Assembly: GCA_017506865.1 (NCBI GenBank)
Contig: JAFCMP010000246.1
Location: forward strand, 310,001-374,000
Direction of reading: 5' to 3'
Origin: Tribonema minus
Lineage: Eukaryota > Sar > Xanthophyceae > Tribonematales > Tribonemataceae
Length of the DNA stretch: 64,000 nucleotides
The notes beneath the pieces were generated by a model, which saw only the letters and a list, made by a program, of their open reading frames with translations, made no database searches and was not told the DNA's origin. Position numbers and translations under genes: made by a program. Positions 172-64,000 of this stretch are shown in pieces (positions within the stretch are counted from its first letter, which is position 1; each line of letters begins with the position of its first letter).

Positions 172-2612
172 CCGACGAGGAGGACAGCGACGACGACGGC
201 CCCATCTACAACCCCCTCAACCTCCCCCTGGGCTGGGACGGCAAGCCTATCCCCTTCTGGCTCTACAAGTTGCACGGCCTCGGGGTGGAGTACAAGTGCG
301 AGATCTGCGGGGACTTCAGCTACTGGGGGCGGCGCGCGTTCGACAGGCACTTCCAGGTGATGATTCGAAGTTGGAGGAAAGTCAACTTCAACATCAACTT
401 CAACATCACTGTGAGGTGTCAAATGTGGCTTCGCGGTAGGCTGGCCGCGTCCGATGAAATCTGCTCTGACTGCGTGCAATGCTGGGCGCCACATGTGTAG
501 CGAGATCGGCAGCAGCGCGCGTGTGACAGGCACTTGCAGGTGATGATGACAGAATTGTCAAGACCAGCTTTAACAGCATGGTGTTGTTGACACACTGTTC
601 AAGAAGGCCACGGCGCCTAAAATGTAGACTGTGTGCTTTGATCGCCCGCATGCTTGATGTCAACTGCCTTCTAGGGACCCCCTGCAACTGGAATGGTGTA
701 CTTTTGAGTATGAGCACTGCTGTACTTTGAAGTATGAGCAGTGTGTGCGGAGCCTTCAGCTGCTGGGAGTGACATGCTATGCTGACTCTATGTAGCCCTA
801 ACCCTAGTCTCAAACCCCTTGACTCAGATGCCCAACAGCAGATCCATCCCAGACTCGCTGATCCCTCATCGGGAAATGGAATGAGTGGCTTGTGTGTCTG
901 ACCGAATGTCCGCGCCCTTCCCTTGTGCGTGCGCTCTGCACTGCAGGAGTTCCGGCACGCGCACGGCATGCGGTGCCTCGGTATTCCCAACACCAAGCAC
1001 TTCCATGACATCACTCTCATCCAGGTCAGTGTTGAACGTAATTCGCCGATGTTCAAACTTGAAATGCTGTGCTGCTGCATTCCCAACACCAAGCACTTCC
1101 ACGATCTCACTCTCATCGAGGTCAGTGTGCTTTACATTTCGTAAAGTTACTTGACGCTTGAGGCACGAAAAAGCCCAGGTGACTGGAATATGTGATGCTG
1201 GAATAGTGCCGATGCTTTGCCAGGACGATGCAGCGCAAAGGCCACAACAGCCCCTATTATCAGATCCGTATAGCGCCCCTTGCCCACGGCAGCCTTGTCC
1301 GCCCTCCCCCCATGTATCCACACATGCGCAATTCGTCATCCTTCCATTGCGTGCGTGCCGCGTGCGATTTGCGTCAGCGAGCAGCTGCGCAGGTGCAGCA
1401 CGGCTCAGTGGCGCACATGGCAGTCGCACACAGCAGCACGCGGCATAGTGCATGGCGTTCAGGCCAGGATTGGTGCACCACACCTGTATGCGATGCTGGG
1501 CATCACTTGAAGTTTGCTTCAGAGAACTTGTTGAAGTTCATGAACCCTACGCAGTTGTTGTGTCAGCGCGAGATGCAGCGCACGACTTGCACAACTGGAA
1601 GGTCCACCGTGATGTGTGTGCGCATCGCTTGCGGCGTCAACACACATGGACGCAATGACAGCGCACGCCCTTCATGACGCCCGGTTTCAGGGCCCCCCTC
1701 AGCCCCCTCGTGTGAAATGGTTCATGCAACGTCCCGCTATTCTACATGCGTGTCAAGGATAAAACCCACAACTGCTGTCAAGCGGTGCTGAATTCGTCGT
1801 TCCACACAGGTAATCGTGGACGCCGAGATCCCGCTCGTCTACATGCGCGTCAAGGACAAAGCTCACAACATGCACGCAGTCATGAAGACATCCTGCCCGA
1901 AGCTGATGACGCAACGGACAACGCGGGCGGTTGTCGCACAGTGTGGTGCCGCGCCAGTTGACGCACGCCGTCTCGCAATTGGCGATCAGTTGGGCGCATT
2001 TGACACTGGCGCACGTCGTGTGCATCGCGTCATCAACGTCGGGTAGACAGGTCTTCATCACTGCGTGCATGTTGTGAGGTTTGTCCTTCACGCGCATATG
2101 GTGCAGCGGGATCTCGGCGTCAGCGGTTATCTGTGTGGATGGACGAATTCAGCGCTGTCGTGACAACAGCAGCATGCCTAACCCTAACCCTAGCCCTTTT
2201 CCCTGCATCTCATGTTGCACTGGTGCTGCTCATGTGCATACTAACGTATGCACTTTTCATCTCCCTCCTGCCAATACTGCGCTGACCGCCCCCCATGTCA
2301 ACGCTCCGCACGCAAATTCAGCACTGTTTGGCCTAACCCTAACCCTTCTCTCTGCATCGCACGTCGCACTGGTGCTGCGTGTGTGCATATTTCATCTCCC
2401 TCCTGCCAAATACCGCGCTGACTCGCCCCCGTGTCAACGCTCCGCACCGCGCGGCGCGCGCGCAGGACGCCATGGACCTCTACGCCAAGCTCAAGGGCAA
2501 ACTTGAAGTTGAGGCGTGGACGCCCGACGTCGGCGAGGAGTTTGAGGACAGCGAGGGCAACGTGCTCAACAAGCGCACCTACGAGGATCTCGCGCGCCAG
2601 GGGCTGCTATAG
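172..2612 (+). CDS. SF3A3: Splicing factor 3A subunit 3 (SF3a60/Prp9), C-terminal exons; 5' part lies outside the window
   Basis: Three exons: 172..356, 947..1024 and 2466..2612 (stop TAG). All junctions are GT-AG and phases agree. The protein is the C-terminal part of the U2 snRNP SF3a complex subunit. An acidic stretch is followed by the [18 protein letters not shown] core, the matrin-type C2H2 zinc finger ([19 protein letters not shown] continuing into [19 protein letters not shown]) and the conserved tail ending in [16 protein letters not shown]3a60 holds the U2 snRNP together for branch-site recognition in the nucleus. Exon 172..356 begins with the last two bases of a codon, so upstream exons are missing to the left. 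Partial copies of two exon ends sit in the introns (513..546 and 1079..1128). The second copy stays in frame, so use of its donor at 1121 would insert 32 residues. Confidence 0.95.
513..546 (+). repeat. Copy of an SF3A3 exon end plus donor site
   Basis: This segment repeats 331..364: the last part of the zinc-finger exon (GACAGGCACTTCCAG) with its donor GTGATGAT, with a few substitutions. It sits about 180 bp downstream in the same intron. Confidence 0.8.
1079..1128 (+). repeat. In-frame copy of the SF3A3 IPNTKHFHD exon end with donor
   Basis: The segment repeats 982..1032, covering [14 protein letters not shown] and the donor GTCAGTGT. The copy reads [14 protein letters not shown]. It has the Glu that is usual in the family at the last position, and an identical donor. 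The reading frame is open from the real exon through the copy. Confidence 0.85.
1741..2121. repeat. Imperfect inverted repeat with an extra direct partial copy inside an SF3A3 intron
   Basis: The left arm starts at 1819 (GACGCCGAGATCCCGCT) and the right arm ends at 2121 with its reverse complement. Similarity runs inward about 75 bp strongly and more weakly for most of the 300 bp. A third, direct partial copy (TACATGCGTGTCAAGGATAAA) lies at 1743..1785. All three encode variants of MRVKDKxHN, and both full arms encode DAEIPL..[16 protein letters not shown] recognise no known protein. Confidence 0.75.
2177..2346 (+). repeat. Two short interstitial telomere-type blocks (CCCTAA)
   Basis: CCTAACCCTAACCCTAGCCC at 2177..2196 and CCTAACCCTAACCC at 2332..2346, both in the last SF3A3 intron. 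The 150 bp around them is itself a diverged tandem pair (TGCACTGGTGCTGC...TTTCATCTCCCTCCTGCCAA). Confidence 0.8.
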
Positions 2613-3263
2613 AAAATGAAGTCGAATGCCTACAATGAGAAAGCTCCGTCGTTTCGATTGCGCGCCGCGCGTTTGTCTGCCCGTTGACTTCACTACAGCA
2701 GCGTCACATGTGTTGGCACCAGATATTGTGTTGGCACGCTGCAAACGCCAAGCAGCAGGTTGTGTGCATTGGGCACATTGCCGCATGGCATTGCTCATCA
2801 GCAAGAAATGTGCATCTAGCGTAGCATAGGTCACGATGGTGTCTGCCAGTGATGCTCGTGCTGCAGTGGCCTTGCGTCCTATGTGCACCACCCCTCTACA
2901 TGTACACTTGCTGACCACAAAAGTAGATGCTTCAAAGTACTTTGATATCCTTGATCTGGATCGACCAGATGCCTGAAGACCATTTAGACGTCGCGACGCC
3001 GAGATCACCTGGCATTTGCAGCAGCTTTCGCAACCGTGGCTTGGCTGGCTGCCACTGCAGCAGCTTTATTCATTGACGCCAATTCTCGTACAGTGTACTT
3101 TGCTCGGACACACAATCTAATGGCGGGAGACGTCAAGCACCATGGCAGCAGCGCGAAGCCAGGACGACCAAGGCGCAGCGAGCACAGAATTCAAGGGCAA
3201 CAGGCGATACGGGAAGCAGCTGCAGGCATCACGCGTGCCTCGACTATTTGTACACGGTTGTAT
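2613..3263. other. Intergenic spacer between two convergent genes
   Basis: This lies between the SF3A3 stop and the RPAIN stop, so it must hold both 3' UTRs and poly(A) sites. I see no supported coding exon. Confidence 0.6.
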
Positions 3264-63799: not shown

Positions 63800-63800
63800 G
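63282..63800 (+). repeat. Four-unit tandem array of a TRAPPC8 acceptor and exon start
   Basis: Acceptor-plus-exon units start at 63308, 63430, 63555 and 63682, spacing 122-127 bp. Each unit has GCAG, then RCCCGTCTGGCG (CCCGTATGAC in the second) and GGTGATACTGGTG (GGCGATACTGGTG in the third). The first three also have ACGTAGCAGTTGC and GACTTCAACAAC-like intron sequence. Only the last unit continues into the open TRAPPC8 exon. Confidence 0.92.
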
Positions 63801-64000
63801 TGAGTGCTGGTCCATGCGCTGAGCGCTGCTGCCAGAGTTGAACTCCTGTGGATGACTGTTGAACTCTCGTGGAGGACGTGCGCCTGCTGGTGGACTGTAG
63901 GTTGGCAGTGGTGGGTGGTGGTGTCTGCATTGAAGTGCGACTTTAGTTAAGAAAGATGTATTGCGAACTGTTGGGTCAAATCTTGCAAACGTGTCACAAT
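63800..64000 (+). other. TRAPPC8 intron at the window edge, with a donor-side exon copy
   Basis: Around 63870..63905, GGACGTGCGCCTGCTGGTGG and ACTGTAGGTTGGC copy the end of exon 63682..63799 (CTGCTGGTGGACTGTCGGTT). Nothing else is seen before the window ends. Confidence 0.7.

Follow-up and report, generated by a model that had tools for sequence, protein, structure and literature searches.

The introns of a 64,000-nucleotide stretch of the Tribonema minus genome (contig JAFCMP010000246.1, positions 310,001 to 374,000; hereafter the window, numbered from its first letter) were analysed for copies of their own exon edges. The analysis revealed many small duplications, a large share of which span an exon-intron boundary and leave a spare exon end or exon start in the adjoining intron. 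These duplications are local and direct, their spare copies decay neutrally, and gains have followed two gene duplications. With a probability of about 0.7 they are products of DNA-break repair that were kept in introns and that decay more slowly at exon edges. They look like ordinary repair duplications occurring at unusual density, without any new machine. The interpretation given in the original prediction, which was made from the letters of the window, is partly supported.

Sequence sample and gene models

The conclusions refer to the sequence sampled from a genome of 158 Mb in 554 contigs. The first sample of 234 kb comprised the window and 17 fetched stretches of about 10 kb from its own contig and seven others. 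After adding 80 kb, a contiguous block of 184 kb was available on the contig of the window, and an extra locus of 6 kb with a chaperonin gene was taken from another contig. The gene models came from the final version of a small purpose-written gene finder, whose predicted proteins read well, and the counts rest on these models. Two self-trained gene finders were dropped because they drifted towards many tiny exons, one later model set was also dropped, and an earlier set served for the first listing of pairs only. Predicted exons shorter than 18 bp and 22 predicted exons copying the edge of another exon (9 in the smaller set) were removed before counting. Of 169 introns, 117 entered the 30-mer scans (flanking exons of at least 45 bp, intron of at least 200 bp), and a match required at least 23 of 30 bases. 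A stricter set consisted of 55 hand-picked introns, all of them GT-AG, from genes whose exons are conserved as judged partly by comparison with known proteins.

Local direct duplications in the window

When the window was compared with itself by BLAST (E<=1e-3), 46 pairs were obtained, of which 36 lay within 3 kb, and 35 of these 36 were direct. The claim that the copies are local is in accordance with this result. In the 234-kb sample, pairs less than 500 bp apart (at least 44 bits) were direct in 99 cases and inverted in 3, and three dinucleotide-preserving shuffles of the same sample gave no pair within 500 bp. The 184-kb block showed 140 direct pairs versus 1 inverted pair less than 500 bp apart. 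Most copies have diverged by 5-34%. An assembly error or collapsed haplotypes could be suspected in so far as repeats are hard to assemble, but this divergence is above the level of assembly duplicates, which excludes them as a general cause and makes such an artefact scarcely credible.

All 18 sites at which exon-edge copies had been predicted lie in a local direct repeat or at most 6 bp from one. Fifteen are inside self-BLAST pairs, positions 6451 and 22628 are 6 and 2 bp outside one, and position 7526 falls within a 34-bp tandem repeat. The predicted gene names fit the Pfam families SF3a60_Prp9_C, RPA_interact_C, IFRD, YchF-GTPase_C (OLA1) and TRAPPC-Trs85, while the Tcp11 match is below the family cut-off and leaves the name TCP11 weakly supported. 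Two corrections are needed: RPAIN and OLA1 lie on the minus strand, and purely intronic copies exist as well (20055, 24047, 44550, 50771). The copies were said to have a usually intact splice site and to seed decoy sites, and indeed the decoy GT is kept in 36/52 donor pairs and the decoy AG in 19/21 acceptor pairs. The duplications of the window are as follows, with percentages giving the identity of the copies.

329..547, plus strand: SF3A3 exon end with donor (329-364) and intronic copy (512-547), 88.9%
968..1128, plus strand: SF3A3 exon end with donor (968-1032) and intronic copy (1064-1128), 86.2%; donor GTCAGTGT intact in both
4243..4436, minus strand: RPAIN adjacent duplication across a donor, copies 4243-4336 and 4339-4436, 82.7%
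6457..6688, minus strand: RPAIN exon end with donor GAG|GTGAG, copies 6457-6529 and 6616-6688, 94.5%; either copy may be the real edge
7518..7585, minus strand: RPAIN 34-bp x 2 tandem repeat across the 3' edge of predicted exon 7562-8030
16782..17030, plus strand: IFRD acceptor edge (16942-17030) and upstream intronic copy (16782-16875), 80.9%; CAG intact
17113..17665, plus strand: IFRD donor edge at 17186 with decoys at 17334 and 17477, period about 148
19491..19729, plus strand: IFRD adjacent tandem duplication across donor 19578, 87.6%; the decoy GT reads TT
20055..20222, plus strand: IFRD intronic tandem duplication touching no exon edge (interior comparison case)
22383..22690, minus strand: OLA1 acceptor edge (22383-22443) and intronic copy (22630-22690), 86.9%; CAG intact
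24047..24445, minus strand: interior tandem duplication in an OLA1 intron, 81.5%
25605..25845, minus strand: OLA1 donor edge of exon 25786-26069 and intronic copy (25631-25716), 81.4%
26053..26222, minus strand: OLA1 acceptor edge and intronic copy (26157-26222), 83.3%; GGCAG|GTGCG intact
27085..27649, minus strand: OLA1 exon end with donor AAG|GTGCGT (27588-27649) and copy (27372-27437), 90.9%
within 27085..27649, minus strand: further OLA1 copy pair 27085-27190/27449-27557
44550..44689, plus strand: interior tandem duplication of 70 bp x 2 in a TCP11-like intron, 90%
44874..45089, plus strand: TCP11-like exon end with GTGA (44874-44901) and copy (45062-45089), 28/28 bases
50771..50907, minus strand: interior tandem duplication in an intron of a predicted deaminase/dyskerin gene, 89.2%
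63223..63720, plus strand: TRAPPC8 array ending on acceptor 63681, with decoy acceptors at 63308, 63429 and 63554, period about 120
63759..63922, plus strand: TRAPPC8 donor edge at 63799 and intronic copy (63870-63922), 81.1%

The OLA1 pair 27372-27437/27588-27649 holds the donor AAG|GTGCGT, but the gene model placed the exon end elsewhere and the pair is booked as exonic, a known model error that counts against the finding.

Decay of the spare copy

The divergence of edge pairs was calculated for 73 pairs (52 donor, 21 acceptor), to which some edges contribute more than one pair. Mismatches amounted to 377/3189 (11.8%) in the exon part and 1292/7580 (17.0%) in the intron part; with one pair per edge the values were 11.5% and 17.6%. 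The contributions of codon positions 1, 2 and 3 to the exon part were 81/976, 80/975 and 152/974 (8.3, 8.2 and 15.6%), so that divergence at positions 1 and 2 (8.2%) is about half of that in the intron part. With one copy free and the other protected, positions 1 and 2 should diverge half as much as the intron and position 3 almost as much as it, which matches these data, and coding constraint on both copies is not seen in them. The spare copies evolve neutrally. Decoy GT bases were altered in 14/104 cases, a share close to the 191/1602 of the exon part, that is, they were neither kept nor purged. Since the GT of the decoy has changed at the pace of the sequence around it, the data give no hint of decoys being in use or being removed after they form, and the decoy sites probably go unused.

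These data bear on the suggestion that selection maintains the copies because they work as alternative exon ends or as back-up splice sites. Such a role would agree with the 22/52 decoy donors in which GT is retained, with a score no more than 1 nat away from that of the real donor, and with the AG kept in nearly all decoy acceptors. However, the divergence at codon positions 1 and 2, which is half that of the intron, leaves the spare copy without any constraint, and the decoy GT is kept no better than its surroundings, so a functional role is very improbable.

The repair reading would account for the copies in the following way. Small local direct duplications, mostly 80-250 bp apart, would arise repeatedly, most probably as a by-product when staggered DNA breaks are repaired by end joining. 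Those altering the mRNA would be lost, and those with the extra piece in an intron, edge-spanning ones included, would be kept. The spare copy would then mutate at the neutral rate with the real exon copy held by selection, and an edge-spanning pair would diverge at about half the rate of an intronic pair and stay visible about twice as long. Edge pairs thus stand out partly because the protected exon copy halves the divergence and approximately doubles the visible lifetime. The slower decay is a large part of the reason why exon edges stand out, though not everything.

Frequency of copies at exon edges

In the block, 37/117 introns carried at least one diverged copy of their own exon edge in the 30-mer scan. 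The alignment-free scan found own-intron recurrence for 25/116 donor and 12/116 acceptor 30-mers. Against one randomly drawn other intron each, the counts were 0/116 for donors and 0/116 for acceptors, and donor 30-mers on the antisense strand also gave 0/116. The full sample contained 90 local direct duplication clusters, distributed as 47 exon-edge, 31 intron-interior, 7 exonic and 5 other. Of the 78 edge and intronic clusters, donors are involved in 31 and acceptors in 17, with one cluster counted in both groups; under uniform placement each side would have 12.6. Donor and acceptor sides are both affected, as had been stated, with the correction that donor edges are affected more often. In the 55 stricter introns copies were present at 21 donors and 13 acceptors with a donor/interior ratio of 3.45 (bootstrap 2.27-5.17); SF3A3 alone had 7/10 donors and 2/10 acceptors copied. 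Exon ends were copied in 26/115 cases (22.6%) compared to 9.7% for 30-mers just inside the donor, a ratio of 2.3 (gene bootstrap 1.6-3.5). The original prediction would have failed had edges been no commoner than the intron interior; donor edges exceed it 2.4- to 5-fold, and a factor of about 2 in this excess is the slower decay of the exon-anchored pair.

Several results weigh against repair and decay as the complete explanation. The ratio of exon end to inside donor rises to about 3 at stricter thresholds (2.1-3.2 for thresholds 22-27), which is beyond decay alone. The intron side of the donor also exceeds the interior, 9.7% versus 4.4% (ratio 2.2, bootstrap 1.2-3.2), where the interior rate is lowered by the lesser downstream sequence available for interior 30-mers to match. 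In the block 44/69 clusters lie at edges versus 21-29% predicted by a simulation of uniform neutral duplication, decay and intron turnover. Among edges with copies of at least 85% identity, 8/20 stop no more than 9 bp from the splice site versus 6-12% in simulation; this tally of copy ends was made after seeing the data, and RPAIN 6620 and OLA1, which were left out, would give 9/22. Exon ends (26/115) exceed exon starts (8/117) 3.3-fold at 23/30 bases (p 0.0013). The selective loss of exonic duplications fits the block, where duplications cover 3.3% of deep exon bases versus 15.0% of interior intron points; outside the block the order is reversed, with 9.3% of deep exon bases and 5.1% of intron points covered, which weighs against selective loss there. 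Lastly, in 7/12 spaced pairs examined the spacer was without similarity to the flank (z below 2). Uniform neutral placement as the whole cause of the edge excess was rejected, as it falls short with or without decay. When introns were assumed to be shortened to 0.6, the 31 donors compared with 18.2 expected, and at 0.4 with 23.5.

Edge-directed copying would explain these excesses by a process linked to the exon end, such as breaks at the donor site, nucleosome or R-loop edges, or copying from pre-mRNA, that favours the exon end with its donor. The numbers of copied donors in the clusters and in the stricter introns, the excess of exon ends over exon starts and the copies ending at +4 to +9 all point in this direction. 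About half of the donor excess is, however, gone when intron-side 30-mers are compared, and against intron positions 40-160 bp from the donor the intron side reaches 9.4% versus 6.4%, which is 1.5-fold with p 0.24. Spaced copies are equally divided between donors and acceptors, and the gene models are those of this analysis. Edge-directed copying is therefore considered unlikely, though it is the most serious competitor of the repair reading. Its fuller form is slightly more doubtful: transcription, splicing or exon chromatin would direct duplication to exon 3' ends, and introns would grow from the donor side, and the tandem decoy donors gathered there would supply material for alternative splicing and for new introns.

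Donor and acceptor asymmetry

The difference between the two edges depends on the comparison. At the 22/30 threshold exon ends and starts were copied in 26 and 13 cases (2.0-fold), and the excess of exon ends was present in 8 genes and reversed in 1. The 31 donor versus 17 acceptor clusters alone gave p 0.06. Adjacent pairs were 17 donor versus 4 acceptor (p 0.007), and spaced copies 13 versus 12. The asymmetry is thus clear only with exon 30-mers and among adjacent pairs. Selection is a likely reason for it: the splicing machinery would reach an upstream decoy acceptor before the real one, so that such a decoy would spoil the mRNA and be selected against, while a real donor upstream of its decoy would already be committed and the downstream decoy tolerated. 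Against selection as the cause, the bias lies in adjacent and not in spaced duplications. A modest part of the donor excess goes beyond plain repair, and the acceptor shortage would be explained by the harm that upstream decoy acceptors do.

Intron lengthening and intron gain

The claim that introns are lengthened agrees with a median length of 814 bp for introns with a duplication versus 442 bp for those without, which is a correlation. The proposed route to new introns is not supported, as 1/78 intronic clusters touches both a donor and an acceptor edge, and one of the exons of this cluster (25601-25662) is probably itself a copy retained by the program. The other clusters make introns of the gene models longer. 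Two further ideas, that the copies are stages in the birth of introns by tandem duplication or that recursive-splicing sites are formed from AG|GT copies, would find an argument in the AGGT present in 17/52 donor decoys and in the documented model of intron birth by tandem duplication (outlined in PMC3443670). AG|GT is nevertheless not significantly enriched at duplicated donors (18/30 versus 71/139, p 0.42), and together with the single two-edge cluster this renders both ideas highly unlikely.

Probable repair origin and comparison with known systems

The arrangement of the copies was analysed for signs of their origin. Adjacent or overlapping clusters (gap of at most 12 bp) numbered 40/78; the other 38 are spaced, with spacers of 13-419 bp, five above 200 bp. 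The junctions of 17 single adjacent pairs have overlaps or gaps of -11 to +9 bp, that is, short microhomology or filler. Small break-repair duplications with comparable junctions, local sources and direct orientation are described in parts of PMC8355091 and PMC7407515, and for rice the latter reports, citing another paper, that insertions 10-1000 bp long, tandem or nearly so, were derived from sequence no more than 200 bp from the break. Overlaps and filler at the junction, local source and direct orientation together match break-repair duplications.

Like the 'patch-mediated' insertions of rice and the mammalian duplications of CST/Pol alpha-primase, the present copies are direct, local, tens to hundreds of bases long, adjacent or spaced, with short microhomology or filler at the junction. 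Unlike them, they are read from decayed copies and not from new mutations, and they are dense in one contig and skewed to donor edges. Tandem duplication as a source of introns is a known model (passages of PMC3443670 and PMC4974935). For potato RdRp, the account in PMC4974935 has a duplicated piece crossing an intron-exon boundary and another 83-bp duplication inside an intron. ATP2A1 and potato RdRp resemble the present case in duplication across splice sites or exon-intron edges; here, however, existing introns are lengthened, with no sign of new ones. Introners also add intron sequence but are families inserted in many genes (as characterised in PMC9860276), whereas the edge 30-mers found no match in other introns in the draws reported above. 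Intronic minisatellite arrays are approached by loci with at least three units of fixed period (63223-63720, and 147440-148166 in window coordinates, beyond the window), but many events here are single and spaced, and exon sequence is part of the unit. No report of frequent intronic exon-edge copies was found in the titles and abstract openings of the literature searched, which is not proof of novelty; the density, the measurable neutral decay and the donor bias seem to be new.

Timing and spread

The process had been described as continuing, and two paralogue comparisons bear on its timing. Two adjoining genes A and B beyond the window (L026:2582-9123), presumably NADP-oxidoreductase-like, have exons 84-86% alike. 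Gene B has three units of exon end and intron start (period 86) where gene A has one, and gene A has an acceptor copy that gene B is without. The introns of the pair differ strongly in length and content, and from these differences intron turnover looks fast. Two TCP11-like genes lie in opposite orientation on the same contig (35490-47996 and L005/L019), with aligned stretches 78 and 87% identical. In the paralogue, the copied 28-mer is matched by the real edge only (24/28; other sites at most 18), and no second copy was found. Judged from these sequences, copies in both comparisons seem to postdate the gene duplications.

The claim of a genome-wide process is not supported, as exon-end copies fall from 26/115 in the block to 2/52 in stretches of seven other contigs (Fisher p 0.0017). 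Cluster density likewise was 75 in the 184-kb block versus 15 in 130 kb elsewhere (p 8e-7), where some stretches look gene-poor and the models are less sure. In C60 and C150, whose genes read well, 0/30 exon ends were copied. The chaperonin gene on C235, found via its Pfam family, has two intronic duplications above threshold and, at the laxer 22/30 threshold, 1/4 exon ends copied. The process is thus not limited to one contig, and its density is strongly variable.

Intron lengthening and the origin of splice sites are usually argued from few cases. Here about one third of the tested block introns still hold a duplicate of their own edge, for which the protected exon serves as a reference, and one genome could yield the duplication rate, the neutral decay and the selection against decoy donors and acceptors. 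From 69 clusters, 121 kb of intron and the simulated detection window, the rate can be roughly put at one duplication of this kind for about every 300 substitutions. A donor bias that persisted with improved gene models would point to an asymmetry, mutational or related to splicing, that is not expected from plain repair.

Other features

At 45761-46076, in a TCP11-like intron and between units of a local duplication, an interspersed repeat of about 316 bp with sharp ends is 91-96% identical to at least 38 other places in the genome (40 of 2248 candidates scored) and could be a candidate short mobile element. Dyskerin (CBF5) and a dCMP/cytidine deaminase domain are predicted as one gene at 49953-54925 on the minus strand, which may be either a fusion or two neighbouring genes. 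Interstitial TAACCC/TTAGGG arrays resembling telomere units occur at 10343-10373, 29966-30008 and 51575-51627. The best solved-structure matches of a light-harvesting protein (L028) are fucoxanthin chlorophyll a/c-binding proteins, which makes an alga with chlorophyll c likely and speaks against the green alga that the composition had suggested, and its family has 92 matches in the genome, counted as exon pieces.

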